From Asanoa hainanensis (GTDB lineage Bacteria > Actinomycetota > Actinomycetes > Mycobacteriales > Micromonosporaceae), in the NCBI RefSeq assembly GCF_900188485.1, contig NZ_FZPH01000001.1, positions 310,001 to 374,000 of the forward strand: a stretch of DNA of 64,000 nucleotides. Direction: 5' to 3'. The position numbers were made by a program, and so were the translations under genes. Below are positions 6,430 to 58,375 of the stretch, in pieces; the stretch's first letter is position 1, and every line of letters starts with the position of its first letter. The notes below the pieces were generated by a model. The model was not told the DNA's origin, made no database searches, and was given only the letters and a program-made list of their open reading frames with translations.

Positions 6430-6436
6430 CCCACCC

Positions 6437-7979: not shown

Positions 7980-8531
7980 TCAATGCCACCGGCTCATCCA
8001 GTCCCCCGGGTGGGTGACGCGGAAGTCGGCCAGGGCCTCGTCCGTGCGGGCCGCGATCATGATGAGGTCCTGTGATCGCCGGAGGATCACGTCGGGGCTC
8101 ACGTGCCACGGTGCGTTCCACTCCATGGCCGGCAGGATCGTGGACAGCGGCGTGAAGGCGTCGAACAGCTCCCCGTCGTAGTCCGTCAGCTTCCGGCAGT
8201 CGTGACGGTCTCCGGCCTCCACCGCCTCCCAAAGAACCAGCTCGACCAAGCTGAGAGAGAAGCGATCGGTGTACGGCTGCGGCCGGTGCGGGAAGTTGAC
8301 GTAGACCGGCGGGTCGTCGCGCCACGGTCGTAGTGGCACCGAGAAGAACGCGGTCGCCTGGTGGGTGCACCTGAAGGTCAACATCCCGTCGTCGTACGAG
8401 AGCTCCTCCAGCTCGTACAACGCGCCTTGTCGGCTCGTCAGGTCCGGGTTGTTGCCGATGAGCTGGTATGCCTGCCGGACCACCTCCGGGAGCTCGAGCG
8501 CGCCCAAACCGGCCACGATGTCGAACCCCAT
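7980..8531 (-). CDS. SUKH/SMI1-KNR4-like protein, function unknown
   Basis: 183 residues, no signal peptide. The central part (LPEVVRQAYQLIGNNPDLT, then LEELSYDDGMLTFRCTHQ, then DDPPVYVNF) follows the SUKH pattern: a conserved helix around the Y-x-L-x-G-x-x-P, a strand with DDG-x-L-x-F, and a late DPPVY. SUKH proteins often act as immunity partners of polymorphic toxins, but many actinobacterial members stand alone. No toxin gene lies next to it. The similarity is by eye and moderate. Confidence 0.55.
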   Translation of the reverse strand: MGFDIVAGLGALELPEVVRQAYQLIGNNPDLTSRQGALYELEELSYDDGMLTFRCTHQATAFFSVPLRPWRDDPPVYVNFPHRPQPYTDRFSLSLVELVLWEAVEAGDRHDCRKLTDYDGELFDAFTPLSTILPAMEWNAPWHVSPDVILRRSQDLIMIAARTDEALADFRVTHPGDWMSRWH

Positions 8532-8674
8532 GGCGCGACAGCATAGGAGTCAGTTGGCCGACACCGTGCAACTCCCGGCCGGGACAGGTCGTCACCTTGC
8601 ATATGGACAGCCGTCGTCCGGGTTTGGAGGATGGACACGGCTGGACGGTGCGCGACGACTCACGGGGGGCCATC

Positions 8675-9667: not shown

Positions 9668-9732
9668 CCAGCGTATTTCCACCAGGATGGAAACCCCTCC
9701 CCCAGGAGGCCAGGCCCGGGGAGAGTGGGCCG

Positions 9733-42981: not shown

Positions 42982-43307
42982 GTCCGGCATACCTTCCGCA
43001 AGTCGACCGACGGATGACATGGCAAGGCAGACCTCGCCCGCCCGCTGTCGCGGGTCGGCGATGCCTGGTGGTCGGGGACGTGGGCGTGTGAACGACGCAC
43101 GAGGTGCACAGCTCGTGACGCCGTTTACATTGATGAAACCTTCTGGTGTGCGACCGACCCTAATCGCTGATCATCAACATGTAAACATCTTTCGATGATG
43201 TTGAGCAGACTTTTATCTTCGTGAGCAAAAGTACGGACGATCCTGATCGTTTTGATCTGTTGGTCCACCACGGACAGCGGCGGAGGGCCCTTGTGGACGG
43301 CCGTCGG
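42982..43307. promoter_or_regulatory. Intergenic region with probable promoter of the copper/DUF1080 operon
   Basis: 326 bp without a gene and with a distinctly AT-richer core (about 43120-43240). It contains an inverted pair GTTTACA (43123-43129) and TGTAAAC (43180-43186), and a second inverted repeat AACATC (43184-43189) with GATGTT (43197-43202). These could be operator sites for a sugar-type repressor. I cannot assign -10/-35 elements with confidence. The plus-strand half also lies past the stop of the LysE gene. Confidence 0.4.
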
Positions 43308-43943: not shown

Positions 43944-44489
43944 TTACCCAGCGTCGGTCCAGGCGTTCACGGCCAGCCGGCCGGTGGTGCCGAGGTCGAG
44001 GCCGCCGTCGGGGGTGAGCAGCTGTTCCTTCGCGCCTTTCGTCGGCGCGACCGACAGGTAGGTGGCGATGACGGGGTCACCCGCGGTCACGGTATTACGC
44101 CACAGCACGCGGGCGCGTGCCGTGCCGCCAGGTGGGACCGTCACGGCGCGGGCTGGGGCGTCCCAGGAGTCTTTCGCGCTCACCGGCTCCGAGCCGTTGC
44201 CGACCGTCACGTCGACCGCGGCGCGCTGGTCGTCGAGCACCCGCACGACCGGGAAGCCGTGGAGGGTGTACGGGCGGGTGCCGCAGTTCTCCAGCACGAT
44301 GCCCATCGCCCGCAGGCCGGAGGCGGCGTCGACCGGGCCGGCGGTGAGCCTGACGCCGTCGACGCAGGCGGCCGTGGTGGCGGTGGGCGGCGGCGTGGGC
44401 GGAAGGGGCGGCGGCCCCGGCGCGTCGCACGCCGCGAGCAGGGCGCCCGCGGACAGCAGCGCGCCGAGGCGCCGGGAGACGGTCGTCAT
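43944..44489 (-). CDS. DUF4232-type lipoprotein
   Basis: 181 residues from ATG 44489, overlapping the MBL gene stop by ATGA. Lipoprotein signal with lipobox LLAAC (Cys21), then a Pro-rich linker and a beta-sandwich domain: LRAMGIVLENCGTRPYTLHGFPVVRVLD, VTVPPGGTARARVLW. This is the pattern of actinobacterial DUF4232 proteins, of unknown function at the cell surface. Two Cys (in AACVDG and LENCG) could form a disulfide. Confidence 0.82.
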   Translation of the reverse strand: MTTVSRRLGALLSAGALLAACDAPGPPPLPPTPPPTATTAACVDGVRLTAGPVDAASGLRAMGIVLENCGTRPYTLHGFPVVRVLDDQRAAVDVTVGNGSEPVSAKDSWDAPARAVTVPPGGTARARVLWRNTVTAGDPVIATYLSVAPTKGAKEQLLTPDGGLDLGTTGRLAVNAWTDAG

Positions 44490-45439
44490 GCGAAGGTGTA
44501 CGGCTTCAGGTAGTCGGGCAGGACGATCCGGGTGCGCGGTGCGACCCGCCGGATCGAGGTGATCATCGCATCCAGCCGCTCGCGGTCGGCCGGGGCCACC
44601 GGCGGCGGGTTCTCCAGTGGCTTCTCGAAGTTGTCCCAGTGCACGGGCACCACGACCGGCGGCTTGCCGAGCGCCTCCAGCAGGCGGGGCACGTACTCGT
44701 GGGTGGTGGTCGCCGAGGCCATGGCCACCATCGCGATGTCCGGCCGCATCCCGTCGACGTTGCGGGCGACGAAGTCGCTGGCGCCCATGAAGAACACCGC
44801 CGGGCCGTCGCGGACGCTCAGCAGGTAGGCCAGGGTGTCGCCCTCCGGCAGGTCGCCGACCGTGGCCGGCTTGGGCGGTGGGCTCAGCCGCACGCCGGGG
44901 ATGCCGACCGAGTAGCTGGCGTTGCGGCTGTGCAGCGATCCGGCCACCTCGACGGTGTAGTCGCCGAAGTCGAGCACCTCGCCGCCCTTGACCGGGCCGA
45001 GCTGGCCCACGGGGATGCCGGACGCCAGGCCGAGCTGGTAGGTGGTCATGGTCCCGAGCACCCGGGCCTTGGTGCGGATGGCGATGTGGGGCACGTCGTT
45101 GAAGTGGTCCCAGTGCGAGTGGGTCACGAGGATCGTCTCGGGGCGGCCGACGTTGGCGTCGACGGTCGCCGTGGCCACCGTCAGCGGCGTCGACAGCACC
45201 AGGCCGGTGTCGAACAGGCCGGTCCAGTAGCGGCTGAGGTACGGGTCGACCAGGACGGTCCGGGCACCGATGTCGATCCGCCAGCCGGCGGTGCCGAACC
45301 AGCGGAAGGTCGCGGCGCCCGGGCGCCAATCGCGCGGGGCTTTGGCCTGGGCGGGGGTCGCGAGACCGGCCGCCCCCGTGGCGGCCAGTCCGGTGACAGC
45401 CGCAGTGCGCAACAGGCCTCGACGGTTGAGTTGTGTCAT
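44486..45439 (-). CDS. Tat-exported MBL-fold metallo-hydrolase (UlaG/NAPE-PLD-like)
   Basis: 317 residues from ATG 45439, chosen because a Tat signal follows at once (NRRGLLRTAAVTGLAATGAAG); an upstream in-frame ATG at 45490 would bury it. The metal-binding motif is THSHWDHFND, with earlier IDIGARTVLVDPYLSRY and later His in PVHWDNFEKPL. The layout (short first motif, W-D-H) is of the L-ascorbate-lactonase/NAPE-PLD-like branch. Substrate unknown. It is followed by the DUF4232 gene, translationally coupled. Confidence 0.87.
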   Translation of the reverse strand: MTQLNRRGLLRTAAVTGLAATGAAGLATPAQAKAPRDWRPGAATFRWFGTAGWRIDIGARTVLVDPYLSRYWTGLFDTGLVLSTPLTVATATVDANVGRPETILVTHSHWDHFNDVPHIAIRTKARVLGTMTTYQLGLASGIPVGQLGPVKGGEVLDFGDYTVEVAGSLHSRNASYSVGIPGVRLSPPPKPATVGDLPEGDTLAYLLSVRDGPAVFFMGASDFVARNVDGMRPDIAMVAMASATTTHEYVPRLLEALGKPPVVVPVHWDNFEKPLENPPPVAPADRERLDAMITSIRRVAPRTRIVLPDYLKPYTFA

Positions 45440-45497
45440 GGGTTGAGACCCAAGCACCGGCGATCGCTTGGCGTCCAAGATCAAGATCATAAACAGC

Positions 45498-45518
45498 CGA
45501 TATGGATACGCGTATCGG
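45498..45518. promoter_or_regulatory. Nested palindrome upstream of the MBL-hydrolase gene, possible operator
   Basis: GATACGCGTATC (45505-45516) is a perfect 12-bp palindrome, and CCGATA (45498-45503) with TATCGG (45513-45518) forms a second, overlapping inverted repeat. It lies 66 bp upstream of the MBL gene start in a 122-bp gap. A TetR-like repressor could bind, but none is encoded nearby. Confidence 0.35.
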
Positions 45519-45561
45519 TGCTGGTCAGGGCGGTTCCTCGGGCGCCGTCGTGGTGGGAAAC

Positions 45562-46473
45562 TCAGCTCGCCCGCAGCGCTTCGACGGCTGTGCGGGCCGC
45601 CTCTCCCATCGCGAGGTCGACGTCGATCCGGCGGAAGTCGAGCTGGTGGGCGCGGGCGAAGATGGCCAGGGCGTAGCGGCCGCCGTCCGGGTATTCGACG
45701 ACTCCCGCCTCCATGTGCAGGCCGGGCAGCGTGCCGGTCTTGGCGGAGACGCGGACGCCGTTCGGGAAGCCCGAGGCGATCCGGGTGAAGAAGATCTGGC
45801 GGGCCATCAGCCCGCGGACCATGGCCGTCGCGGCGGGTGGTCCGGCCTCGTCGCGCCAGATCAGCTCGAGGAGCCGGGTGACCTCGCGGGGCGTGCTGGA
45901 GGTGGTCTGGTCCGGGTCGAAGACCCGCATGGCGCGTACCCGGTCGGGGTCCAGGGTTGGGAAGATCTTCACGAACTCCTCGTCGCCGGCCGCGCCGACG
46001 TCTTCGTACATCGACTCCAGCAGTTCGCGTGGTCCGCCCGTGATCCGGGTCGAGGTCAGGCCGAGCTCGGCCGCGAGCAGCGGGAGCACGTCCGGGCCGA
46101 CCCGGCGCAGGAGCAGGTCAGCCGCGGTGTTGTCGGTGAACGACATGGCGAAGTAGGCGAGGTCGCGCAGCGACAGCTCAGCGTCGTCGGCGCAGCCCGC
46201 GGTGCCCCAGCCGCCGAGCCGGTCCGCCGCCCGCACGAGCACCCGCTCGGTCGGGTCGAGCTGGCCGGCCGCCGCCTGCCGCGCGAACTCCAGGACCAGC
46301 AGCACCTTGAAGATCGAGGCGAGCACCACCCGCTCGTCGGCGCGCACCGACAGCTGGGTGCCGCGGTCGATGTCGACGGCATGCAGCTGCGCGTCCACCC
46401 CGACGGCGGCGAAGATTCCGGCGATCCGATCCAGGTCCGACACGGGGACCGACGGTACCGCGCCGCGACTCAT
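45562..46473 (-). CDS. Class A beta-lactamase-like serine hydrolase without signal peptide
   Basis: 303 residues from ATG 46473 (ATG 46485 is an alternative). Penicillin-recognising motifs are present: S-x-x-K in ASIFKV (Ser53, Lys56), a T-D-N in SFTDNTAADLLLRR at the place of S-D-N, and K-T-G in SAKTGTLPG. The domain is complete, but there is no export signal, odd for a beta-lactamase; it may be cytoplasmic or act on another substrate. It is divergent from a LysR gene with 24 bp between starts, the classic AmpR/AmpC-like arrangement. Confidence 0.85.
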   Translation of the reverse strand: MSRGAVPSVPVSDLDRIAGIFAAVGVDAQLHAVDIDRGTQLSVRADERVVLASIFKVLLVLEFARQAAAGQLDPTERVLVRAADRLGGWGTAGCADDAELSLRDLAYFAMSFTDNTAADLLLRRVGPDVLPLLAAELGLTSTRITGGPRELLESMYEDVGAAGDEEFVKIFPTLDPDRVRAMRVFDPDQTTSSTPREVTRLLELIWRDEAGPPAATAMVRGLMARQIFFTRIASGFPNGVRVSAKTGTLPGLHMEAGVVEYPDGGRYALAIFARAHQLDFRRIDVDLAMGEAARTAVEALRAS

Positions 46474-46497
46474 ATCCGAACGCATATCCTCGGCCGG

Positions 46498-47442
46498 GTG
46501 GACCTAGCCCGGCACCTGCGGCAGTTCCTCGTCGTCGCCGAGGAGCTGCACTTCGGCCGGGCCGCGGACCGGCTGGGCATCGCGCAGCCGCCGCTGAGCC
46601 AGGCGATCCAGCGGCTGGAGCGCGAGCTCGGCGTCGAGCTGTTCGACCGCTCCCGGCGCCAGGTCGCGCTGACCGTGGCGGGCCGGCTGCTGTGCGCGGA
46701 GGCGCCTTCGCTGCTGTCCGCCGAGGAGCGGATCCGGCTGCTCATGCGCAAGGTCGGCGACGGCGAGCTCGGCACGCTGCGGGCCGGCGTACCGCCGGAG
46801 ACACCGGCGGTGACGCTGCAGGCGCTGCTGGCCGGAATGGCGTCGCGGGCGCCCGGGCTCGAGGTCGACCTGCACGAGCTGACCAGCGCAGAGCAGCTCC
46901 GGATGCTGACCGAGGCCCGGCTCGACGTGGGCCTGGTGCACCACCCCGTCGACGGTTTTGCCGCCGGACCGGTGGTAGCGGTCCGACTCGGGGTAGTGCT
47001 CCCCCGCACGGCGTCGCTGGCCCGGCTGCGGGAGGTTTCCCTGGCCGACCTGGCCGGTCACGACCTGGCGATCTTCCCGCGAGCCACGGCACCGGGCTGG
47101 TACGACGAGATCCTGGACGCCTGCCGCGACCACGGCTTCCGCCCGACCCGGGTGCGGCACGCCCACAACCCGGACTTCCTGCTGGGCCTGGTACTGGGCC
47201 GCCAGTGCGTGGCGTTCGAACCGGAGACCACCGCCCGACGCGAGCCCCGCGTCGCCTGGCGCCCACTCGCCGGCTCGGTGCTGGAACGCCGCACCTCGGC
47301 GGTCTGGCCGGACCGCTCACCCCACCCGGCGGCACCGACCTTCGGCGCGGTGGCCGCAGCGATCCTCGCGGGCCCGAACCTGGTCCGGCAGCCGACCGCA
47401 GGCCCCGACCGGGTGCAACCGTGGTCAGTCGTCTACCCCTAA
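46498..47442 (+). CDS. LysR-family regulator divergent from the beta-lactamase-like gene
   Basis: 314 residues from GTG 46498; the longer open frame upstream is antisense to the beta-lactamase-like gene. The helix-turn-helix is typical (HLRQFLVVAEELHFGRAADRLGIAQPPLSQAIQRLERELGVELF at residues 4-49, split here only for the label), then a two-lobed effector domain. With only 24 bp between the divergent starts and no ribosome binding site, both mRNAs are probably leaderless and the regulator likely binds the repeated CATATCC motif (46471-46477 and 46483-46489) in that gap. Confidence 0.9.
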   Translation: MDLARHLRQFLVVAEELHFGRAADRLGIAQPPLSQAIQRLERELGVELFDRSRRQVALTVAGRLLCAEAPSLLSAEERIRLLMRKVGDGELGTLRAGVPPETPAVTLQALLAGMASRAPGLEVDLHELTSAEQLRMLTEARLDVGLVHHPVDGFAAGPVVAVRLGVVLPRTASLARLREVSLADLAGHDLAIFPRATAPGWYDEILDACRDHGFRPTRVRHAHNPDFLLGLVLGRQCVAFEPETTARREPRVAWRPLAGSVLERRTSAVWPDRSPHPAAPTFGAVAAAILAGPNLVRQPTAGPDRVQPWSVVYP

Positions 47443-47443
47443 C

Positions 47444-47488
47444 TCACCTTGTTTCCGCGACAAGCCGGGCAGCCACGCCGGCCTGGCC
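47444..47488 (-). pseudogene. Degenerate duplicate of a LysE C-terminal end
   Basis: On the minus strand this short piece reads GQAGVAARLVAETR and a stop, closely resembling the end of the LysE gene just upstream (FAGLAARLVADSR and stop, at 47506). Nothing else of a LysE gene is seen on either side, so it looks like a leftover of a tandem duplication or of a recombined second copy. Confidence 0.45.
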
Positions 47489-47505
47489 GGTCGGCGACAC
47501 CCGAC

Positions 47506-48135
47506 TCACCTGCTGTCGGCGACGAGGCGGGCGGCCAGGCCCGCGAACACGGTGGCGGAGGCCCGTTCCATCCACCGCCTGATGCCGGGGCGGGCCGTGA
47601 TCTTCTCGGACAGGGTTCCCGAGAGCAGGCCGGCGGTGCCGTCGACGGCGAGGCCGACCACGATGAAGACCAGGCCGAGCACGAGGAGCTGGGCGGTCAC
47701 CGGCCACGTGCCCGGGCCGGTGCCGACGAACTGCGGCACGAACGCGAGGTAGAACAGGATGACCTTCGGGTTGGCCAGGTTGGTCAGGGTCGCCATCAGG
47801 TAGGTGCGGCGCAGCGACCGGCGCTGCACTGCTTGCTGCTCCAGCTCCATGCGGCTGCTCCGCCAGGTCGCCACCGCCAGGTAGAGCAGGAACGCCGCAC
47901 CGGCGATCCGCACCGCGGTCAGGGCCTGCGGGGCGGCGCTGATCAGCGCGCCGAGCCCGAACGCGGCGGCCACGGTGTGCGCGGCCAGCCCGGTCGACAT
48001 GCCGAGCGCGGCGAGCACCCCGGCCCGCCGGCCACCGGCGGCGCCGTTGGCGACCACGAACAGCAGGTCCGGACCGGGCGCGAGCGACAGCAACGTGCAG
48101 GCGGCGACGAACGCGAGCACGAGATGGATATCCAC
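47506..48135 (-). CDS. LysE/RhtB-family exporter
   Basis: 209 residues, GTG start, six hydrophobic segments. Signatures: LLSLAPGPDLLFVVANGAAGGRRAG, GAAFLLYLAVATWRS, and YLMATLTNLANPKVILFYLAFVPQF. Exports an amino acid or related compound. The start codon shares one base with the stop of the CHAT gene (TAGTG), so it is probably cotranscribed with it. A second LysE gene lies at 43308-43934, and a fragment of a third tail lies just downstream. Confidence 0.92.
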   Translation of the reverse strand: MDIHLVLAFVAACTLLSLAPGPDLLFVVANGAAGGRRAGVLAALGMSTGLAAHTVAAAFGLGALISAAPQALTAVRIAGAAFLLYLAVATWRSSRMELEQQAVQRRSLRRTYLMATLTNLANPKVILFYLAFVPQFVGTGPGTWPVTAQLLVLGLVFIVVGLAVDGTAGLLSGTLSEKITARPGIRRWMERASATVFAGLAARLVADSR

Positions 48136-50732
48136 TATGGACCCCCTGGGAACGGTGCGATGAAGCCGTGTCCGAAACAGTTGAACCCGGCGGCCGCCGC
48201 CCGCACGTGCGGGTCGGCGTCGCGCAGCGCGTGCTGGGTCGCGGCGAGCGCCACGGCCGGCGGCGCACCGGCCGCCAGGCGCTCGTGGTAGCCGACCATC
48301 ACCGGCTCGGTGGCCAGGTCCGGGATCGGCAACACCGGTGCCACCAGCTGCGCGGTCCCCCGAGCGGCCAGCGTAGCGCTGAGCCCGAGCAGTTCGTCAC
48401 CCGCGTAGACGGCGGCCCGGCCACTGTCGCAAGCGGCCAAACTGACGGTGTGCGGAGTGCTCTCCAACCGTTCCAGGTCGTGCACCAGCAACGGCCCGTC
48501 GGCGAGCAGCAGGTCGGAGAAGAGCGGGTTGCCGGTCGACAGCCGCCCATGCGCGGCCAGGTGCAGCACAGCGACCTTCCCCATCACCGCGAGCACCTGG
48601 TCGACGGGCGCGTCGAGCAACGGCACGACGCCGTGAATCGCGGCGACCCGCCGCGCCTCCTCCCGCGCCCCGGGCAGCCTCGGCCCCGCGACCACCGCCA
48701 CCTCCGCACCAGCGGGACCCCGGCCTGCCGCGTACCAGAGGGTTGCTGATGGGGAGACCGCGATCGGGCGGCCCGCGCAGGACGGGAGGATCGACCACGG
48801 CACGCTGTGCAGCGCGCCCGTCGGAGAGATCACCAGGGGGCCGTCCGGCAGCCCGCTCAGTAGGGCGGCGTCGAGTCGGGACGCGGCGCCCGAGAGTAGG
48901 GCCTCGGCGGCCGCGCGGCGGGCGTCGCCCGGGCGGGCCAGCCGGTGCAGGGCGAACGGCAGGCGGCGGACCAGGTCGGCCAGCGGCGGCAGCGGGCCGA
49001 GTGGGCGCGCGGTGAGGCGGCCGCCGGTCAGGGTCAGGCGGTGCAGGATGCCGTCGGACTCGACGAACTCGACCAGGACGCGGTCACCCAGCGCCGCGGC
49101 CAACGGGGCGACCGCGACCGGCGTCCACAGTGGGGTGTCGCCGGCCGCGCGGTGGGTGCGGACATGGTCGCGGATCCGGCGTTCCAAAGCGACCTGGCGC
49201 GGCACCAGCCGGGCGGTCTCCGCCGCGCCCGCGTCGGCGAGCTCGAACGCGACGCCCCGGAGCTGCGCCAGCAGGTCGGCGAGCAGCGGGTCGGCGGGCG
49301 GCCGCGCCGGCCGGTGGACCAGTCGGGTCGCCCGGCCTCGCTCGGCCCACTCCAGCAGCCGATGCGGACGCCCGTCGCGCAGCGCGAGCCGGACTCCCAG
49401 CGCGGTCAGTTCGCGGCGGTGGGCGGCCGAGTGCACCCGCAGGTCGGCGGCGCCGAGCGAGGCGCTGTGCTCGTCGAGGATGCGCAGCCCGGCGCGGATC
49501 GCGGCGACGGCCCCGGCGGGCTCGGTGTGCTGGCGGCGCAACGCCTCCGCGTACCAGCCGCGGGCCCGGATCGCCGCCGGCACCCGGCGGTGGGCCCACC
49601 GGGCGGCGGCGGCCAGGTGGGTGTCGGCTACCCGGGGTCGCAGCGCGGCCGCGACCAGGTGTGCCTCGACCGTCGCGGCCGGCCAGCCGGCGTCCGTCAG
49701 GGTGGCTACCAGGTCGTCGGCGCCGCGGGCCGGGCGGGCGCCACCCGCCCGCAGGCCCGCCTGGAGGAGGGTGAGCCGGGCCAGGGCGGCCCACTCCACC
49801 CGGTGCTGGGCGGCGAACTCCCGGGTCGCCCGGCGGGCGTTGTCCGCCGCCGCGCGCCAGTCGCCGGCCGCCGCTGCGGCCTGGGCCAGCAGCAGCCGGG
49901 CCTCCGGCACCTTCAGCCGGTGTCCCTCGCGGCGCATCATGGTCGCGGCCCGCTCAGCCGCCTGCCGCGCCTCGGTCGCCAGCCCGGCGGCGAGCAGCAG
50001 CACGCCACGGTCGTACACGGCCAACGCGACGTGGCCCCCGTTGGCGGCGATCACGGCCTCGGCCCGGTCGATGTGGGCCAGCGCGGCCGGCACGTCACCG
50101 CGCAGGGCCTCGGCGACGCCGAGGTTCTCGACGATGATGCCGACGGCGAGCGGGCGGCCGAGCCGGGCCGAGATCGCCTCGGCGGCGCGCAGGTCGGCCA
50201 CGGCGGCGGCGAACGCGTACCGGTGGGTGTGCAGCACTCCCCGGTTCGTCAGCAGGCGCGACACCGCGATCTCGTCGCCGGCCGCGCGCAGCCCGGGGAG
50301 CGCCGCCTGGAAGTCGGCGAGGGCCTCGTCGTGCCGGCCGATCTCGGTCAGGATCACCGCCCGTTGGGCCCGCGCCCGGTCGGCGGCGACGCCGTCCAGG
50401 GCGCCCAGGGCGGCCTCGACCTCGGCCAGCGCCTGGCGCGGGCGGCCGCGCATCACCAGCGCGTACGCCAGCTTGCCCCGGGCCTCGCCCGTCACCGTGG
50501 TCAGCCCGGCCCGCCGGCCGTGCGTGATCGCCGAGCGCAGGTGGCGGATGGCGTCGTCCATCTCGCCGGTCTGGAGCAGCGCGTGGCCCCACGCCCGCTG
50601 GGTGATCGCGGCGGCGGCCGCGTCGCCGGAGCGGCGTGCGGCGACCAGCGCCCGCGCGGCCAGCGGCGGCACCCTGCCTGGGTGGGTGTCGGCGAGCAGC
50701 GCGACCGCGTCCGCCTCGGCCCGCGCGTCCAC
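48135..50732 (-). CDS. TPR-CHAT protein (caspase-like protease)
   Basis: 865 residues, GTG start, no signal peptide. The first 430 residues or so are tetratricopeptide-type helical repeats rich in Ala and Arg (ALLQTGEMDDAIRHLRSAI and similar). The C-terminal third (about 580-865) is a CHAT domain: RVLVEFVESDGILHRL, GPLVISPTGALHSVPWSIL, then the catalytic dyad His728 in LHLAAHGRL and Cys768 in VSLAACDSG. CHAT proteases cut specific partner proteins after activation of the repeat region. It is divergent from the S8 protease/sigma factor operon (123 bp between starts) and probably works with it. Confidence 0.92.
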   Translation of the reverse strand: MDARAEADAVALLADTHPGRVPPLAARALVAARRSGDAAAAAITQRAWGHALLQTGEMDDAIRHLRSAITHGRRAGLTTVTGEARGKLAYALVMRGRPRQALAEVEAALGALDGVAADRARAQRAVILTEIGRHDEALADFQAALPGLRAAGDEIAVSRLLTNRGVLHTHRYAFAAAVADLRAAEAISARLGRPLAVGIIVENLGVAEALRGDVPAALAHIDRAEAVIAANGGHVALAVYDRGVLLLAAGLATEARQAAERAATMMRREGHRLKVPEARLLLAQAAAAAGDWRAAADNARRATREFAAQHRVEWAALARLTLLQAGLRAGGARPARGADDLVATLTDAGWPAATVEAHLVAAALRPRVADTHLAAAARWAHRRVPAAIRARGWYAEALRRQHTEPAGAVAAIRAGLRILDEHSASLGAADLRVHSAAHRRELTALGVRLALRDGRPHRLLEWAERGRATRLVHRPARPPADPLLADLLAQLRGVAFELADAGAAETARLVPRQVALERRIRDHVRTHRAAGDTPLWTPVAVAPLAAALGDRVLVEFVESDGILHRLTLTGGRLTARPLGPLPPLADLVRRLPFALHRLARPGDARRAAAEALLSGAASRLDAALLSGLPDGPLVISPTGALHSVPWSILPSCAGRPIAVSPSATLWYAAGRGPAGAEVAVVAGPRLPGAREEARRVAAIHGVVPLLDAPVDQVLAVMGKVAVLHLAAHGRLSTGNPLFSDLLLADGPLLVHDLERLESTPHTVSLAACDSGRAAVYAGDELLGLSATLAARGTAQLVAPVLPIPDLATEPVMVGYHERLAAGAPPAVALAATQHALRDADPHVRAAAAGFNCFGHGFIAPFPGGP

Positions 50733-50855
50733 GCCCTCATCCTCGCGGGGGACGGCGTCCGTACTCCAGAAAAATTAGCCGAGGGTGTATCAACCGCGAC
50801 CGATAGTGTGTCCGTGGGTCGACCGCGTCGTCCGTCCGTTCCGCTGGAGGAACCC

Positions 50856-52028
50856 GTGACCGCCTTCCTAGAGCCCTCCGACGACTACACCGCCGGCGAC
50901 CTCGTCGTCGACCATCCCCATCGTGAGCTGGTCAAGAAGCGCATCAGGGACCTCGGGCTCGACGTCACCGAGGTCGCGGACAGCGAGGCGCTCGGCCTGA
51001 GCCGCCTGCACCTCGAGGGCGTCCCGGCCTTCGGCGCGAGCAAGGGCCTCCCCGCCGACGACGTCGCCGCCATCGAGCTGGTGATCGACGAGTTGCGGCA
51101 GGCTTTCGCCGCCGATTTCGGCGGGTGGGTGCCCGAGATGGCGCCCGACCCGACGATGACCGGCATCGTGGGCTACCCGCACACCAAGCCGATGGCCTTC
51201 ACCACCGACCTCATGCCGGCCCCGGCCAGCCAGGCACCCATCGCCGACAGCACGGTCGGCGCGGGCGTGCGGGTGGCGGTGCTCGACACCGGGCTGGTCG
51301 ACCACCCCGCGCTCAAGGGCCACGCGACCGAGGCACCCGGTGGAGCGGATGCCGCCAACGACCCGGTGGAGGCCTGGGCCGGCCACGCCACCTTCGTCGC
51401 GGGGCTGATCGCCCAGCGCGCACCCGGCTGCGAGATCGTGGTGCACAAGGTGCTCAACGCCCACGGCCGCGCCACCAACTGGGAAACCGCCGTGGCGCTG
51501 GCCAAGCTGGCCGACGACCCCGAGGGTTACGCCGTCGTCAACCTGTCGCTGGGCTGCCGGCTCGGCGGTCCGAACGGGCCGCTGGCGTTGCGCCGCGCGG
51601 TCGCGCGACACGGCCGGCACACGCTGCTGGTCGCCGCCGCGGGCAACCACGGCGGCAGCGACAAGCCGACGGTGCCGGCCTGGCCGGCGGCCTTCCCCGG
51701 CGTGATCGCGGTCGGCGCCACCAACCTCGCCGGTGACCTCGCCCAGATCACCCCGGAGCTGCCGTGGGTCGACTGTGTCGCGCACGGCTCCGGTGTCACG
51801 TCCACCTACCTGACCGACGTCACCCTCACGATCGACGACAAGGTTCTCGACTTCACCGGGTACGCGACCTGGAGCGGCACCTCCTTCGCGGCGGCGAACG
51901 TCAGCGGCGCGGTCGCGGCGGCGCTGCGCCCCGGCGAGCGGCCCGCCGACACGCTCGCACGACTGCTCGGCGATCCCGCCTCCGACGTCAGGCCGTTCCC
52001 GCTGTCGGCGGCGGGTCATGCGGGATGA
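50856..52028 (+). CDS. S8 family serine protease, apparently cytoplasmic
   Basis: 390 residues from GTG 50856 with CTGGAGG 5 nt upstream. The subtilase catalytic residues are all present: Asp144 in VAVLDTGLVDHP, His177 in GHATFVAGLI, Asn264 in AAAGNHG and Ser343 in SGTSFAAANVSG. There is no signal peptide; the 130-residue N-terminal region starts with acidic residues and may be a regulatory prodomain. It overlaps the sigma factor gene by 11 bases. An unsecreted subtilase next to CHAT and an ECF factor suggests proteolytic control inside the cell. Confidence 0.9.
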   Translation: MTAFLEPSDDYTAGDLVVDHPHRELVKKRIRDLGLDVTEVADSEALGLSRLHLEGVPAFGASKGLPADDVAAIELVIDELRQAFAADFGGWVPEMAPDPTMTGIVGYPHTKPMAFTTDLMPAPASQAPIADSTVGAGVRVAVLDTGLVDHPALKGHATEAPGGADAANDPVEAWAGHATFVAGLIAQRAPGCEIVVHKVLNAHGRATNWETAVALAKLADDPEGYAVVNLSLGCRLGGPNGPLALRRAVARHGRHTLLVAAAGNHGGSDKPTVPAWPAAFPGVIAVGATNLAGDLAQITPELPWVDCVAHGSGVTSTYLTDVTLTIDDKVLDFTGYATWSGTSFAAANVSGAVAAALRPGERPADTLARLLGDPASDVRPFPLSAAGHAG

Positions 52029-52587
52029 CCCGTCGGTCGTCGACCTGGTCGTGCGGGCCCGGCACGGTGACGCGCGGGCCTGGGACGCGCTGGTCGACCG
52101 CTACGCACCGCTGGTGTGGGCGATCTGCCGGCGCTTCGGGCTCGGCGGCGCCGACGCGGAGGACGTCGCCGCGAGCGTGTGGCTGCGGCTGGTCGAGCGC
52201 CTCGACACGATCCGCGAGCCGGCGGCCCTGCCCGGCTGGCTCGCGACGACGGTCCGCCGGGAGTGCCTGACGGCGCTGCGGGGGCGCCGGCACCAGGTGC
52301 CGGTCGGCGACGAGTCCAACCTGGACAGCGTCGACGACCCGGCGTTCGAGGAGCTGCTGCTGGCCCAGGAGCGGCACATCGCGCTGCGGGCCGCGTTCGA
52401 GAACCTGCCCGAGCACTGCCGGCACCTGCTGACGTTGCTCTTCGACGACCCGCCGGCCCCGTACGCCCAGATCAGCAGCAGCACCGGCACCCCGATCGGC
52501 GCGATCGGGCCGACCCGCCGGCGCTGCCTCGACCGGCTGCGGCGCGACCCCGCCCTGGCCGCGGTCGCGGGGGTGGAACAATCATGA
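52018..52587 (+). CDS. ECF-type RNA polymerase sigma factor
   Basis: 189 residues from ATG 52018, starting inside the protease gene. Region 2 reads LVVRARHGDARAWDALVDRYAPLVWAICRRFGLGGADAEDVAASVWLRL (residues 10-58; shown in pieces in the family as D-A-E-D-V-x-Q) and region 4 is the helix-turn-helix near residues 125-170 (ENLPEHCRHLLTLLF, YAQISSSTGTPIGAIGPTRRRCLDRL). No anti-sigma factor with a membrane segment or zinc motif is adjacent; the next small gene could fill a related role. Probably regulates its own operon. Confidence 0.9.
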   Translation: MRDDPSVVDLVVRARHGDARAWDALVDRYAPLVWAICRRFGLGGADAEDVAASVWLRLVERLDTIREPAALPGWLATTVRRECLTALRGRRHQVPVGDESNLDSVDDPAFEELLLAQERHIALRAAFENLPEHCRHLLTLLFDDPPAPYAQISSSTGTPIGAIGPTRRRCLDRLRRDPALAAVAGVEQS

Positions 52588-53012
52588 CGGATGCCGAGAT
52601 CGTTGCCGCGCTGGCCGAAGCGCGGAAGGCCGCTGCCGAGGTGCCCGAGCGGATCCGGGAGATCGGCCGGGCCGCGTACGCCTGGCGGACCGTCGACGCG
52701 GAGCTCGCCGCCCTGTCCGCCGACACCGACACCCCGGTCGGCACCCGGGCCGAGCCGGCCGCGGTGCGGGCGCTGACCTTCGCCGCCCGCGACCTGACCA
52801 TCGAGGTCGAGCTCACCGACGACGCCCTGCACGGTCAGGTGGTGCCGCCCCGGCCCGGCGAGATCGAGCTGCGCGACCGCTCGGGGGTGGTCGCGGTCGC
52901 GCAGGTCGACGAGCTGGGCTGGTTCGTCCTCGGCCCGATCCCCCGCGGCATGTTCCGGCTGCACCTGCGCGCCGGCGACGCCGTGGTGGTCACCGAGTGG
53001 ATCACGATCTAA
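52584..53012 (+). CDS. Small protein of unknown function, partner of the ECF/S8 operon
   Basis: 142 residues from ATG 52584, overlapping the sigma gene by ATGA. The first 60 residues are helical (MTDAEIVAALAEARKAAAEVPERIREIG...AWRTVDAELAAL). The rest (about 70-142) is predicted all-beta: RALTFAARDLTIEVELTD, GEIELRDRSGVVAVAQVDELGWFVLGPIPRGMFRLHL, resembling a carboxypeptidase-regulatory-like or similar beta-sandwich domain. No membrane segment. I do not recognise a named family. Conserved linkage with ECF and S8 genes would suggest a regulatory or substrate role. Confidence 0.75.
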   Translation: MTDAEIVAALAEARKAAAEVPERIREIGRAAYAWRTVDAELAALSADTDTPVGTRAEPAAVRALTFAARDLTIEVELTDDALHGQVVPPRPGEIELRDRSGVVAVAQVDELGWFVLGPIPRGMFRLHLRAGDAVVVTEWITI

Positions 53013-54358
53013 GCGATGTCGCGGCAGAGCACGTCGTCGATCGTCTCCCGACGGACGACCACCCGGGCCGCACCGTCCCGCACGGCGATCAGCGGCGGGC
53101 GACCGACCAGGTTGTAGTTGGACGCCAGCGGCAGGTGGTAGGCGCCGGCGCCGGGAGCGGCCAACAGGTCGCCCGGGCGCAGGTCGGCCGGGAGCGGCAC
53201 CGCGCGGGCGAGCACGTCGCCGGCCTCGTCATGACGGCCGACGATCGTGCTCGACACCGTGGGACCGGTGCCGGCCCGGCCGAGCAGGACGGCCGTATAG
53301 CGGGCGCCGTAGAGGGCGGGCCGGGGGTTGTCGCTCAGCCCTCCGTCGATGGCGAGCAGCTGGCAGCCCCCCGGCTCGCGGCGAACCGCCACGACCCGGT
53401 ACAGGGCCACCCCGGCGCGGGCGACGACCGCCCGACCCGGCGTCACCACCAGCTCCGGTTCCGGCACACCCTGGCGTTCGCAGGCCAGACCCAGGACCGC
53501 CCGGGCCCGGCCTGCGAACGCGGCGACGGCGAAGGGGGTTTCGCCGTCGACGGCGGGCGCCGCGTGGCCCCCACCGATGTTGATCTCCCGGACCACGATT
53601 CCCTTGGTACGGGTGAGATGTCCCGCCACGCTGACGAGGCGCTGGATCGCCCGCTCGTAGCCGCCGAACCGGCTGATCTGCGAGCCGACGTAACAGTCCA
53701 GGCCGTACAACTCCAGCTTGGGTTGGGCGACGATCCGCTTGACCAGGTCGTCGAACGCCTCGCTCGGCGCGGAGACCCCGAACCGGTCGGCGTCGCTGGC
53801 CGCGGGAATGCCGGCGACCCCGTCGAACAGGTCGTCGTGGGCCGGCAGCACCCGGATCAGCACCTTCTGCTTGCTGGTCGCGAGCGCGGCGAGCCGGGTC
53901 ACCTCCGACGCCGACTCGATGACCACCCGGCCGACGCCGTAGTCCAGGGCCGCCTGCAGGTCGGCCGGCGTCTTGGCGTCGCCGTGCAACACGATCCGCT
54001 CGGCCGGGAAACCGACCGCGGCGGCGACCGAGAGCTGACCCTCGGAGTAGACGGAGAGCCCCAGCCCCTCCTCCATCACCCAGCGGAGCACGGCCCGGCT
54101 GGTCAGCGCCTTGGCCGCGTACACGACATGCTCCTTGCCGAAGGCCGCCCCGTACTCCCGGCAGTGGTCCCGGACCTCTCCCTCGTCGATGACGTACGCC
54201 GGTGTGCCGTACTGCTCCGCCAGCGTGGCGAGATCGACGCCACCGATGCTGATCGCGCCGTGCCCGGTGTGCCGGGTCGACGACGGCCAGATCTCAGTGC
54301 ACAGCCGCTGCGGTGGCAGCGACGTGCGCAGTGACGGGATGAGATCCGAGAGGCTCAT
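53009..54358 (-). CDS. lysA: Diaminopimelate decarboxylase-type PLP enzyme
   Basis: 449 residues from ATG 54358, with AAGGAG 7 nt upstream; the open frame extends 56 codons further without similarity. Type III PLP fold: VYAAKALTSRAVLRWV with the PLP lysine (YAAKA), EGLGLSVYSEGQL, RIVLHGDAKT, INIGGGHA (phosphate loop), VTPGRAVVARAG, and CSDNPRP-type AIDGGLSDNPRPALYGARY near residue 345. Catalyses the last step of lysine synthesis, meso-DAP to lysine. The DAP-recognition stretches are not all identical to housekeeping LysA, so a related amino acid decarboxylase is possible. Confidence 0.85.
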   Translation of the reverse strand: MSLSDLIPSLRTSLPPQRLCTEIWPSSTRHTGHGAISIGGVDLATLAEQYGTPAYVIDEGEVRDHCREYGAAFGKEHVVYAAKALTSRAVLRWVMEEGLGLSVYSEGQLSVAAAVGFPAERIVLHGDAKTPADLQAALDYGVGRVVIESASEVTRLAALATSKQKVLIRVLPAHDDLFDGVAGIPAASDADRFGVSAPSEAFDDLVKRIVAQPKLELYGLDCYVGSQISRFGGYERAIQRLVSVAGHLTRTKGIVVREINIGGGHAAPAVDGETPFAVAAFAGRARAVLGLACERQGVPEPELVVTPGRAVVARAGVALYRVVAVRREPGGCQLLAIDGGLSDNPRPALYGARYTAVLLGRAGTGPTVSSTIVGRHDEAGDVLARAVPLPADLRPGDLLAAPGAGAYHLPLASNYNLVGRPPLIAVRDGAARVVVRRETIDDVLCRDIA

Positions 54359-54626
54359 GCCAGCTCCTTGTTTTGTGCGGGCCGAACGGCCGCAGCACGA
54401 GGTGGGTCGAGGTGCGTCCGGCCCCGGCGTGATGCCGGAGCCCACGGACCAGGCCGTCGAGGGCCGCCATGTCCCGGCACCGCACCCGGACGACGGCATC
54501 ACTGTCGGCGGCGACCCACCAGGCATCGACCACCTCCGGCCGATTCGCCAGGTAGGCCTCCAGGCAGGGCGCGTCCTGGGTGTGGTTGAGCCACACCAGA
54601 ACCACCGCTTCGACCTCTCCGCTCAT
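54294..54626 (-). CDS. Stand-alone Lrp/AsnC ligand-binding (RAM) domain protein
   Basis: 110 residues, ATG 54626. Residues 1-80 are a RAM/ACT-like fold without the Lrp helix-turn-helix: EAVVLVWLNHTQDAPCLEAYLANRPEVVDAWWVAADSD (5-42), then VRVRCRDMAALDGLVRGLRHH and a last strand THLVLRPF. Such single-domain proteins bind amino acids and may modulate enzymes or regulators. Its 3' end overlaps lysA by 65 bp in another frame, and the residues after LRPF look like out-of-frame lysA, so the tail may be non-functional. It is probably translated before lysA from one mRNA, so amino-acid sensing of the decarboxylase is plausible. Confidence 0.7.
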   Translation of the reverse strand: MSGEVEAVVLVWLNHTQDAPCLEAYLANRPEVVDAWWVAADSDAVVRVRCRDMAALDGLVRGLRHHAGAGRTSTHLVLRPFGPHKTRSWHEPLGSHPVTAHVAATAAAVH

Positions 54627-54711
54627 GCCATCGATCGTGCGGCGCGCGGGAGGCGGGTGAAAAGGACCTTGACGCGCTCGCTACGCGCTCGGCCCCGCTC
54701 CTGACTCGTCC

Positions 54712-54739
54712 TTGACGCGATCTTCGCAATCGCTATGCT
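54712..54739 (+). promoter_or_regulatory. Sigma-A-like promoter of the SAM methyltransferase gene
   Basis: TTGACG at 54712-54717 and TATGCT at 54734-54739 with 16-bp spacing, close to the consensus TTGACA-17-TATAAT. Start of transcription is expected near 54746, leaving a leader of about 33 nt with GGAG before the ATG at 54779. Confidence 0.65.
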
Positions 54740-54778
54740 CCGGTGCTGAAACCGTCGATTTTTCCTGGAGTCAGGCCG

Positions 54779-55552
54779 ATGACCGACGAGGACCAGGTAT
54801 CCACGCTCGACACGAGCGCGCCGCACAGCGCCCGGGTCTGGAACTACTGGCTGGGCGGCAAGGACAACTTCGCCGTCGACCGGGAGGCGGGCGACCGGGT
54901 CCGCGCGGTCTTCCCCGCGATCGTCGACAACGCCCGGGCGCAGCGCGCGTTCCTGGGCCGGGCCGTGCGCCACCTGACGGCCGAGCGGGGCATCCGCCAG
55001 TTCATCGACCTGGGTACGGGGCTGCCGACGGCGGACAACACCCACGAGATCGCGCAGGCGGTGGCGCCCGATTCCCGGGTGGTCTACGTCGACAACGATC
55101 CGCTGGTGCTGGTGCACGCCCGCGCGCTGCTGACCAGCAGCCCGGAAGGTGTCACGGACTACATCGAGGCCGACGTCCGCGACCCCGACACCATCCTGCG
55201 CGAAGCGGGCAAGGTGATCGACTTCGGGCAACCGGTGGCGGTCATCATGCTCGGCATCCTGGGCAACATCCCGTCGTACGAGGACGCGCTGGCGGTCGTC
55301 GCCGCGTTCGTCGAGGCGGTGCCGCCGGGCAGCTACATCGTGATCAACGACGGCACGGACGCGAGCGACGAGATCACCGAAGGAGCGAAGGTCTCCCACG
55401 GATACGTCCTGCGCAAGCCGGCCGAGCTCGCCCGGTATTTCGAAGGCCTGGAGCTCGAAGAGCCAGGCCTGGTGGCCACGACCCGCTGGCGCGCCGACCC
55501 CGGCGACACGGCCGAACTCGACGGCATGGGCGGCGTCGCCCGCAAGCCGTAG
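54779..55552 (+). CDS. SAM-dependent methyltransferase (Methyltransf_19/DUF574 family)
   Basis: 257 residues from ATG 54779, GGAG 8 nt upstream. Family hallmarks: SARVWNYWLGGKDNFAVDREAGD at the N terminus, FIDLGTGLPTADNTHEIAQ as the SAM-binding loop, VVYVDNDPLVLVHARALL, YIEADVRDP, and LGILGNIPS. These enzymes are numerous in actinomycetes, particularly Streptomyces and Micromonosporaceae, and their substrates are mostly unknown. It has its own promoter and faces the downstream two-component system. Confidence 0.93.
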   Translation: MTDEDQVSTLDTSAPHSARVWNYWLGGKDNFAVDREAGDRVRAVFPAIVDNARAQRAFLGRAVRHLTAERGIRQFIDLGTGLPTADNTHEIAQAVAPDSRVVYVDNDPLVLVHARALLTSSPEGVTDYIEADVRDPDTILREAGKVIDFGQPVAVIMLGILGNIPSYEDALAVVAAFVEAVPPGSYIVINDGTDASDEITEGAKVSHGYVLRKPAELARYFEGLELEEPGLVATTRWRADPGDTAELDGMGGVARKP

Positions 55553-55568
55553 CCGTAGTCGCCAGCCG

Positions 55569-56234
55569 CTAGTCGCGGGTCGCGCCCGGCACGACCAGGC
55601 CGGTCTCGTACGCGGCGACCACCGCCTGGGTGCGGTCGCGCAACCCAAGTTTCGTCAGCATGCGGCTGACGTGGGTCTTGACCGTCTCCTCCGTCACCAC
55701 CAGGCGGGCGGCGATCTCCGGGTTGGACAGTCCCTCGGCGACCAGGCGCAGCACCTGGGTCTCGCGCGGCGTCAACGCCGACAGCGCCACCGGGGCCGGT
55801 GCCGACGGGCGGTGCTGGCGGGCGAACTCGCCGATCAGGCGGCGGGTCACCGTCGGGGCCAGGAGGGCCTCGCCCGCCGCGATCACGCGTACCGCGTCGA
55901 ACAGGGTCTCCGCCCGGACGTCCTTGAGCAGGAAGCCGCTCGCTCCCGCGCGGATCGCGTCGTAGACGTACTCGTCGAGGTCGAAGGTCGTCAGGATCAG
56001 CACCCGGGGGTGGGCCGCCGTCGCCGTCAGCAGGCGGGTCGCCTCGATGCCGTCCATGCCGGGCATCCGCACGTCCATCAGGACGACGTCCGGCGAGCGC
56101 GCGGCGCAGACCTCGACCGCCGCGGCGCCGTCGGCCGCCGTGCCCACCACCGAGATGTCCGGTTGGGTGGCCAGCAGGCCGGCGAAGCCGCCGCGGACCA
56201 CCTCGTGGTCGTCGGCCACCACCACGCGGATCAT
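55569..56234 (-). CDS. NarL/LuxR-family response regulator
   Basis: 221 residues. Receiver domain with Asp54 in [10 protein letters not shown] and Lys in FLLKDVRAE; LuxR-type helix-turn-helix at the C terminus ([48 protein letters not shown], residues about 152-199, quoted only by its ends LTPRE and KLGLRDR in families). Overlaps the kinase gene by ATGA. It probably controls the divergent ABC-2 transporter genes at 57452-60614. Confidence 0.93.
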
Positions 56235-57340
56235 CGGTCCTCCTCGGTCGGGACGGGCAGGGTGGCCTCGACGACGAAGCCGCCGGCGGGGCCGGAGACG
56301 CCGGTGCGGAGCCGGCCGCCGACCGCTGCCGCGCGCTCGCGCATGCCGCTAAGGCCATGGCCTCCGTTAGACGCGGGCCCGGGTCCTGGGCCGTTGTCGC
56401 GGATCCGCAGCACCAGACCGTCGGCGCGGTAGCTGATCTCGACATCGACCGCGGCGCCGGGTGCGTGGCGGCGGGCGTTGGTCAGGGCCTCCTGGACGAT
56501 CCGGTACGCGGCGAGCTCCACCCCCGGGTCCAACGGCACCGGCGGGCCGCGCAGGATCAGCCGGGTGCCGGAACCGGACGCGTCGCGGGCCTCGTCGAGC
56601 AACGCCGCCAACTCGCGCAGGCCCGGCTGGGGCTGGCGTTCCGGCTCGGCCGGGGCGTCCGAGCGCAGCACGCCCAGCAACCGCCGCATCTCCGTCAACG
56701 CCGCGCGAGCCGTGCCACCGATCGCCGCGAACCGCTCCGCGCCCGCCGGCGGCAGCCCCGGTGTGGTCAGCCGCGCGTTCTCCGCCTGCACGGAGATCAT
56801 CGAGATGTGGTGTGCGACCACGTCGTGCAGCTCCCGGGCGATCCGGGCCCGCTCGCCGCGCGCGGTGTGCTCGACCAGCGTCCCGGCGAACGCGTCCTGG
56901 GCCGCCAGGTGCGCCGCGTCGGCCCGGCTCACCCGGCGGGCCACCCCGGCCAGCGCGAACCCCGGCACCAGCGCGGCCAGCACGACACCGACCGGGGTGA
57001 AGAAGGCCAGCACCAGGTACGGGAGGCCGAGCGGGACCGCCACGGCCAGCGCGCCCCGGCGGCCGACGCGGTAAGCCGCGGCGAGCTGGGCCAGGAGACC
57101 GGCCACGGTGAAGAGCCCGAACCCGGCCAGGGCCACCACCGACGCCGCGGTGACCACCAGCGCGGCGGTCGTGTCCCGGCGCAGGGCGAGCGGCGCCGTC
57201 GACGCCACCGCCAACGCGGCCAACAGCACCAGGAACGCGCCGGCGACGTCGCGGGACGCCACGAACCGCACCAACGCCTCGGCCGCGGCGGCCACCGCCA
57301 GCGCGGCGACGGCCGCCGGACAGGTCCCGGGCCGATTCAC
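56231..57340 (-). CDS. Sensor histidine kinase (DesK/LiaS type, HisKA_3)
   Basis: 369 residues. Four to five hydrophobic segments in the first 135 residues without an extracellular domain of note, so it likely senses the membrane itself. Phospho-acceptor His172 in [15 protein letters not shown], then an HATPase domain ([20 protein letters not shown]-box [18 protein letters not shown]). Partner of the response regulator downstream. It is divergent from the ABC transporter genes (111 bp), the usual layout of such systems for antibiotic or envelope stress. Confidence 0.93.
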
Positions 57341-57451
57341 GGTGCCATTCTCGCCTCACCCGCCGCCGGGGTCGTCCCTCGTGTCAGGGATGTCGAAGAT
57401 GGCTCCCGCGCGGGACGACCCGGGCCGCCGCGGTTCGTAGCGTGACGTGTC

Positions 57452-58375
57452 ATGGAAGCCACCATCGAGGTCAACGGCCTGCGCAAGGCGTACGGGTCGA
57501 CCGTCGCGCTGGACGGGATGACGTTCACCGTCACCCCGGGGCGGGTCACCGCGTTCGTCGGGCCCAACGGGGCCGGCAAGTCCACCACCATGCGCGTCGT
57601 GCTCGGTCTCGACCGGGTCGACGCGGGCACCGCCCTGGTCGGCGGCCGGCCGTACCGGAGCCTGCGCACGCCGCTGCGGCACGTCGGCGCGCTGCTGGAC
57701 GCGTCCGCCCTCCACCCGGCCCGCAGCGGCCGCGACCACCTGCTGTGGCAGGCGCACTCGCAGGGGCTGCCGGGCCAGCGGGTCGACGAGGTGCTCACGC
57801 TGACCGGGCTCGCCGACGTCGGCCGGCGCCGGGCCGGTGGCTACTCGCTCGGCATGCGCCAGCGCCTCGGCGTGGCCGGTGCCCTGCTCGGCGACCCGCC
57901 GGTGCTGATGCTCGACGAGCCGTTCAACGGGCTCGACCCCGAGGGGATCCGGTGGATGCGGGGCTTCCTGCGCGCGCTGGCCGCCGAGGGCCGGGCCGTG
58001 CTGGTCTCCAGCCACCTGATGAGCGAGCTCCAGGACACCGCCGGGCACCTGGTGGTCGTCGGCCGGGGCAAGGTCGTCGCCGACACGAGCGTCGCCGACC
58101 TGATCGCCGCCGCGTCGAGCGACCGGGTCACCTTGCGGACCACGGCCCGGACCGAGGCGATGACGGCGCTGGCCCGGGTGGGCGCCACGGTCGCCGTGAC
58201 CGAGCGCGACACCCTGACCGTCGACGGGCTGCCGGCCGACCGCGTGGTGACCGTGCTCAGCGAGGCCGGCGTCCCGTTCTCGGAGATCGCCGCGCATCGG
58301 GCGACGCTCGAGGAGGCGTACATGGAGCTGACCCGGGACGCGGTCGAGTTCCGGGCGACGGAGGTGGCCCGATGA
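57452..58375 (+). CDS. ABC-2 type transporter ATP-binding protein
   Basis: 307 residues with Walker A GPNGAGKSTT, Q-loop, signature YSLGMRQRLGVAGALL, Walker B LMLDEPFNGLDPEG and VSSHLMSE. The extra C-terminal 85 residues are typical of DrrA/BcrA-type exporters for drugs or lipids. Overlaps the first permease by ATGA. Confidence 0.94.
   Translation: MEATIEVNGLRKAYGSTVALDGMTFTVTPGRVTAFVGPNGAGKSTTMRVVLGLDRVDAGTALVGGRPYRSLRTPLRHVGALLDASALHPARSGRDHLLWQAHSQGLPGQRVDEVLTLTGLADVGRRRAGGYSLGMRQRLGVAGALLGDPPVLMLDEPFNGLDPEGIRWMRGFLRALAAEGRAVLVSSHLMSELQDTAGHLVVVGRGKVVADTSVADLIAAASSDRVTLRTTARTEAMTALARVGATVAVTERDTLTVDGLPADRVVTVLSEAGVPFSEIAAHRATLEEAYMELTRDAVEFRATEVAR

Follow-up and report, generated by a model that had tools for sequence, protein, structure and literature searches.

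A conserved actinobacterial locus joining two proteases, an ECF sigma factor and a candidate reduced anti-sigma factor

Introduction

What does a caspase-like CHAT protease do beside a subtilase, an extracytoplasmic function (ECF) sigma factor and a small protein without a recognised family? The question is raised by a four-gene locus in a 64-kb stretch of the Asanoa hainanensis genome, hereafter the window. CHAT proteases occur in bacterial conflict systems, and an initial annotation of the window, made from the letters alone, had proposed a proteolytic cascade ending in release of the sigma factor. It had pointed to the small protein as the best candidate for a new regulator.

From sequence comparisons we describe the linkage of the four genes, the catalytic sites, the domains of the small-protein family, a natural fusion, two sub-modules and a promoter-like element. 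Together these point to a cytoplasmic protease-controlled sigma switch, whose small protein would be a derived anti-sigma factor cut by CHAT and/or the S8 subtilase; we hold this reading to be evenly balanced between right and wrong. The gene neighbourhood itself is already known, under the name ECF54. What is new is the small protein read as an anti-sigma factor, the sub-modules and the promoter element, and among the open-licence literature we found no paper that names any of the three.

The four genes and their linkage

The locus consists of the following genes (window coordinates).

48135-50732, minus strand: TPR-CHAT protease gene, 865 aa (Pfam CHAT, E 6.7e-28, residues 617-840; TPR_12, E 7.4e-11).
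50856-52028, plus strand: S8 subtilase gene, 390 aa, GTG start with GGAGGA in front (Peptidase_S8, E 1.1e-28, residues 135-357).
52018-52587, plus strand: ECF sigma gene, 189 aa (NCBIfam sigma70-ECF, E 4e-20, residues 21-176; Pfam Sigma70_r2, E 1.4e-15).
52584-53012, plus strand: small-protein gene, 142 aa, putative reduced anti-sigma factor with a C-terminal beta domain (family alignments, AlphaFold2 model, profile match to long forms).

All four lie where the initial annotation had put them, with the sigma gene starting inside the S8 gene and the CHAT gene divergent from the S8-sigma-small operon. The S8 and sigma genes overlap by 11 nt and the sigma and small genes by 4 nt, the small start lying in an ATGA with the sigma stop. 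The Sigma70_r4 match of the window sigma factor reaches only E 0.039, and its solved relatives are ECF sigma factors. Among the named genomes, the window has its nearest relatives in A. ishikariensis, whose small protein is 96% identical, A. siamensis and A. iriomotensis.

Searches for the small protein located it in 47 of 121 related genomes; with a profile, 45 of 396 genomes sampled from the phylum had it. One scan of named genomes yielded 80 loci; as it relied on conserved peptides, this sample leans towards well-conserved copies. Among the 65 named loci with at least 6.5 kb of flank on each side, CHAT, S8, sigma and small genes occur together in 58, the other seven having the sigma gene only (4), CHAT and S8 (1), CHAT and sigma (1) or none of them (1). 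The count was repeated on non-redundant loci seeded with the small gene, again with at least 6.5 kb on both sides, after removal of near-duplicates and of loci with 1.5-kb flanks (L079-L106): all four families are present in 65 of 72, the remainder being sigma and small (4), CHAT, S8 and small (1) or small alone (2). Six loci of another genus (f18/g77) all hold the four genes in the layout of the window, and the only plasmid record met was an unannotated one, of Nonomuraea gerenzanensis. The proposed cascade presupposed that CHAT stays linked to the S8-sigma operon in related genomes, and this neighbourhood survey finds the linkage kept. We conclude that it is far beyond chance.

The small protein and its anti-sigma-like relatives

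Library searches with the window small protein gave a best Pfam match of E 0.017 (a DNA polymerase domain, under cut-off), a PADLOC match of E 0.1 and no NCBIfam match at E<=1. More could be learned from a set of longer homologues, of about 190-228 aa, present at 15 loci of two distant families (f32 and f45). At these loci, several of them on short contigs, a sigma gene lies 5' on the same strand in 15 of 15, with CHAT in 14 and S8 in 10. The alignment of 14 long forms (the truncated L306 was omitted) has the N-terminal pattern EGR...EA..VE...WLR.F...PP..VR..L..RF, and the NCBIfam 'anti-sigma factor' model NF052375 matches this N-terminus in 11 of the 14 (E<=1, best 5.3e-5). Other weak matches there are to 'putative anti-sigmaE protein' (2 members), RskA_N (1) and zf-HC2 (2). 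The carboxypeptidase regulatory-like domain PF13620 is found in 13 of 14 long forms at E<=0.5, with the member shown under cut-off.

The short form was aligned from 32 of the 41 small homologues plus the window's own, omitting nine over-extended, fused or redundant sequences (L042, L043, L045, L050, L059, L066, L070, L076 and the second L065). When its profile was compared with that of the long forms by hhalign, the two aligned from the PP..VR helix through the end of the beta domain (probability 97.5, E 6.9e-12); for instance, the short form L082 PPPELRDAARAAFAWR corresponds to the long form L301 PPREVRDALIARFEAY. In class I anti-sigma factors, passages of PMC7406223 report that helices 1-3 bind sigma4 and helix 4 binds sigma2, and that 12 of the 14 best predicted contacts fall in helix 4. 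Because the alignment begins at the PP..VR helix and helix 4 is the one that binds sigma2, we interpret the short form as what is left of an anti-sigma factor, namely helix 4 and one further helix. On this alignment, the window protein appears to keep the last, sigma2-binding helix, followed by a linker of low model confidence and a beta domain:

52584-52715, plus strand: residues 1-44, helices 3-18 and 22-44, the latter with the conserved AAFAWRTVDAELA-type motif (AlphaFold2, conservation, hhalign).
52716-52763, plus strand: residues 45-60, linker of very low model confidence, Arg55 codon at 52746-52748.
52764-53009, plus strand: residues 61-142, beta-sandwich, carboxypeptidase-regulatory-like (AlphaFold2 and PF13620).

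In the AlphaFold2 model, the predicted local distance difference test score (pLDDT) is about 46-66 for helix 22-44, which despite this low confidence holds the most conserved N-terminal motif. It falls below 50 in the linker (47-58) and exceeds 90 for most of residues 70-140 of the beta domain, which starts at about residue 61. PF13620 matches 13 of 33 short forms at E<=0.1 (best 2.9e-6); the domain is non-enzymatic and not a peptidase. In 189 of 196 homologues, linker position 55 or 56 is an Arg. A cut after Arg55 is a prediction only, and Craspase orthologues are cleaved at differing, non-conserved sites according to passages of PMC11106740 (L|D, M|K and A|S).

The small gene is also closely tied to sigma. 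A sigma gene lies directly 5' of it on the same strand in 73 of 81 loci, at a distance of at most 60 bp in 69 of the 72 non-redundant loci (starts chosen by script). At L076 the two are naturally fused into a single frame of 310 codons that includes the whole small protein.

Two proteases, two sub-modules

Both proteases look active, judging from their catalytic residues. For CHAT, His728 (105 of 105) and Cys768 (107 of 107 family members) are invariant; for S8, Asp144 (113 of 113), His177 (114 of 114) and Ser343 (118 of 118) are, and Asn264 is likewise without exception (105 to 119 aligned sequences across the protease sites). His728, Cys768 and Ser343 had thus been picked out correctly at the first reading. 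So had the lack of a signal peptide on S8: neither a signal peptide nor a membrane segment is apparent in the window protein (top 19-residue hydropathy 0.49 over its first 60 residues), and none of 95 family members exceeds 1.9, in a scan that began 15 residues before the profile match and may therefore miss far N-termini. About 130 residues precede the catalytic domain of S8. The best solved relative of its family profile is an intracellular serine protease (7y6m, 1.1e-37), and PADLOC matches S8 by general subtilase models only. The CHAT family profile reaches Csx29 (7y9x, E 0.00098, residues 727-814), the sole CHAT-named chain among the best 60 of 126 PDB matches, most of those listed being TPR proteins; a PDB search with the single CHAT sequence reached neither Csx29 nor another CHAT chain.

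The two proteases travel together. In a non-random set of CHAT-seeded loci, the 20 best-scoring beyond those already collected, S8 adjoins CHAT in 20 of 20. All four genes are present in 14; sigma and small are both missing in 5 (L262 at a contig end), and the small gene in 1, also at a contig end. The CHAT-S8 pair thus stands alone in four uncut loci (L261, L276, L278 and L280), whose three genomes carry small genes elsewhere. Conversely, one Asanoa genome (G003, locus L039) is missing precisely CHAT and S8, with promoter, sigma and small retained: between the LysE gene (window 48135) and sigma (window 52013) it has just a 55-bp segment, which matches 50769-50823 at 91% identity. A CHAT-S8 pair that lacks sigma and small does occur at another place in that genome (L256). 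Three Jiangella loci (L156, L165 and L172) have sigma and small only. Since CHAT-S8 pairs occur without sigma-small and sigma-small without CHAT or S8, the two are, on gene content, separable sub-modules. The early guess that gave the role of key regulator to the small protein, there being no recognised anti-sigma factor, gains support from this retention of sigma-small by itself, from the long-form N-terminus and from the L076 fusion.

The solitary CHAT-S8 pairs (the four uncut loci and L256) and the constant adjacency of the two genes would also suit another explanation, which we consider unlikely: CHAT activates an S8 zymogen, leading to broad proteolysis (dormancy or cell death), and sigma and small merely set the level of the system. 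Such a scheme leaves the anti-sigma-like domain and the fusion unexplained, and inspection of loci, by sequence starts only, showed no effector, phage or defence gene next to the pair. Related caspase systems are treated in passages of PMC8195603. No PADLOC model of a known defence system fits the window locus.

Other neighbours were seen at loci holding one sub-module. At L278 and L280 alike, the gene after CHAT encodes a protein of about 1,080-1,130 aa whose N-terminus has a hydrophobic stretch; it may be a partner of CHAT and S8 or one of their targets. In a distant genus (f53/g150), CHAT and S8 are both absent from four loci that have sigma and small (L236, L238, L239 and L240); gene content was listed for two of these, L236 and L238, and both encode a protein of about 790 aa on the opposite strand. 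These loci may use another output or input.

Weighing the anti-sigma assignment

Several results weigh against the small protein being an anti-sigma factor of this sigma. Anti-sigma models match 0 of 33 short forms, and in the AlphaFold2 model the short form is without the three-helix bundle of the class I anti-sigma domain. The long-form matches are, as far as shown, under curated cut-offs (for NF052375, 15.8 bits in the member shown versus 100). Most of the hhalign score may come from the beta domain, and a hidden Markov model of the long-form anti-sigma region picks up, beyond the long forms, just two homologues at weak scores (domain E 0.22 and 0.42). Fusion was seen in 1 of 207 loci examined for it, and sigma is on the other strand or absent in 8 of 81 loci. 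In 15 of 201 units there is no sigma within 1.5 kb of the small gene, a tally that leaves out two more sigma-less loci, L062 and L069.

Tests of direct contact lent the assignment no support and did not refute binding. Mean-field direct-coupling analysis of 127 four-gene units (effective number of sequences 84) gave sigma-small a top z of 7.6, versus at most 3.5 for permuted pairings, and did not single out this pair, sigma-S8 (10.2) and small-S8 (8.7) scoring higher. As these two couplings are higher, the signal is one of shared inheritance and is uninformative on contact. Structure prediction, suggested in the initial annotation for the small protein alone and with sigma, gave a confident beta domain in the first case. 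In the second, a sigma-small read-through chain from Sphaerisporangium perillae (L112, 364 aa; alignment of 31 rows, 7 covering sigma) was modelled with a predicted TM score of 0.43 and no confident interface.

Linkage and fusion fit any close partner, and the small protein might instead be either a positive partner of sigma, as its chaperone, stabiliser or co-activator, or an effector that cleavage sets free. The L076 fusion, which would place inhibitor and sigma on one chain, and the small genes without a nearby sigma (the 15 units above and the orphans at L062/L159 and L069) lean that way. The long-form N-termini resemble anti-sigma factors, which speaks against it, and we judge this alternative rather improbable.

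The orphan small genes at L062/L159 and at L069 (around 7840-8430) have no sigma, CHAT or S8 within 16 kb, and the one at L159 sits between DegV-like and competence-type genes, as judged by sequence starts.

A promoter-like element upstream of S8

Upstream of the S8 gene lies a candidate target of the locus sigma factor:

50787-50815, plus strand: promoter-like element GTATCA-N17-GTCCGT, 5' of S8, putative target of the sigma factor of the locus.

A GTATCA-N15-18-CTCYGT-like pattern precedes S8 in 19 of 95 upstream regions (shuffle mean 0.02) and sigma in 13 of 122 (0.10 shuffled), and CHAT in 0 of 96 (shuffle 0.00). GTATCA alone is found in 21 S8, 28 sigma and 0 CHAT upstream regions, and it also precedes the small gene in 15 of 121 cases. 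Counted by locus, within 600 bp, the full pattern is present in 35 of 116 and GTATCA alone in 56 of 116, that is, in about a third to a half. As the pattern was defined on part of the sequences later scored, the enrichment is not a fully independent test; the retention of the element at L039 is independent.

Scanning five Asanoa genomes with GTATCAN{15,18}BTCYGT gave 3 to 6 sites in each. The reversed pattern, used as control, gave 3 sites in the genome of the window, versus 5 for the pattern itself, and 0 in the other four genomes. The site of the module is the only one common to all five genomes, and we therefore claim no regulon beyond autoregulation.

In two Asanoa genomes (L209 and L216, site at 1501), GTATCA-N15-CTCCGT lies 65 bp 5' of the same gene, whose product (MD/EAAGRTVLVRPDHDLFTRGNQV...) is ABC transporter ATPase-like and is a possible second target of such a sigma factor.

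Comparison with known systems

The review that describes ECF54 (PMC8999054, section 3.3), the sole paper naming it as a sigma group that we found in the open-licence literature, lists carboxypeptidase, subtilase and CHAT genes in its context, no anti-sigma factor, and regulation by proteolysis. The Asanoa locus matches it by gene neighbourhood, with CHAT and subtilase beside sigma in the 58 of 65 and 65 of 72 loci counted above, and a carboxypeptidase-type domain is shared as well: because the beta domain of the small protein matches PF13620, the 'carboxypeptidase' of the review is probably the small protein. The difference lies in its role, for we read it as a derived anti-sigma factor without a peptidase domain, whereas in the review no anti-sigma factor exists and the proteases act on sigma. 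That published proposal, by which degradation of sigma itself holds the system off, fits two proteases that are conserved and look active. It seems to us improbable, as it leaves without a role the most constant neighbour of sigma (directly behind it in 73 of 81 loci), sigma and small are kept together at loci without CHAT and S8 in cis, and the long forms carry an anti-sigma-like N-terminus.

A model for the proposed anti-sigma switch is found in type III-E CRISPR systems, where, according to passages of PMC10028731, an ECF sigma factor is inhibited by Csx30, itself a substrate cut by the TPR-CHAT protease Csx29. The N-terminal part of Csx30 binds sigma and its C-terminal part binds Csx29. 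In both Craspase/CASP and the Asanoa locus, a TPR-CHAT protease with a His-Cys dyad is encoded alongside an ECF sigma factor and a regulator of two parts; the Asanoa locus differs by its added S8 subtilase. No repeat array was found within 44000-57500 and no Cas protein (Cas7-11 included) among the eight proteins in and around the locus, and Csx30 was not listed in PDB searches with the short and long small-protein profiles at E<=10. With class I anti-sigma factors the family has in common the long-form N-terminus, which matches anti-sigma models, and the region of the last helix, to which the short form aligns. The short form differs in having one helix in place of the three-helix bundle, no zinc motif and no membrane segment, and in its carboxypeptidase-regulatory-like C-terminus.

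A possible switch

For the proposed switch, we infer sigma binding and inhibition, cleavage, the order of the proteases, the role of S8, the signal and the regulon. The N-terminal helices of the small protein would hold the ECF sigma factor, while its C-terminal beta domain would serve for docking or sensing, as the C-terminal part of Csx30 does for Csx29. A signal would be sensed by the TPR part of CHAT, which may then activate S8 through a cut in the S8 N-terminal region. Sigma would be freed when CHAT and/or S8 cut the small protein, the linker between helices and beta domain being the likeliest site; S8 could be an activator, a second cutter or a target. Freed sigma would transcribe its own S8-sigma-small operon from the GTATCA-type promoter. 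Of the cascade imagined in the initial annotation, the guess of a key regulator is supported and the linkage is conserved.

More tentatively, and we would sooner doubt than assert it, the locus may be a CRISPR-free counterpart of Craspase, widespread in actinobacterial chromosomes, in which CHAT and a cytoplasmic subtilase act in series on an unrecognised anti-sigma factor and free an ECF sigma factor. On this view the anti-sigma factor would have been overlooked because most of its anti-sigma domain is lost, and control of sigma factors by TPR-CHAT proteases would be a general device that includes the CRISPR form as one instance.

If the switch is real, a sigma group described without an anti-sigma factor, ECF54, has one, and the 'carboxypeptidase' label on a gene of its context is explained. 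A caspase-like protease would control transcription by regulated proteolysis in many soil actinobacteria, with no CRISPR. The locus would also offer a simple cytoplasmic system for signal sensing and substrate choice by TPR-CHAT proteases, with a second protease linked to the pathway. With four small proteins and one predicted promoter, the mechanism lends itself to direct tests.

Further observations in the A. hainanensis genome

The genome of the window has six CHAT genes in total. It holds a second, divergent copy of the four-gene set (S8, sigma, small and CHAT) on contig 16 (L255, about 2000-10200), with an extra S8 gene near. In the window itself, the minus strand at 39892-43020 encodes a 1,042-aa secreted protein; it has a C-terminal domain as well as numerous near-identical DTTAPTVTA...GVATVEYSLDG repeats.

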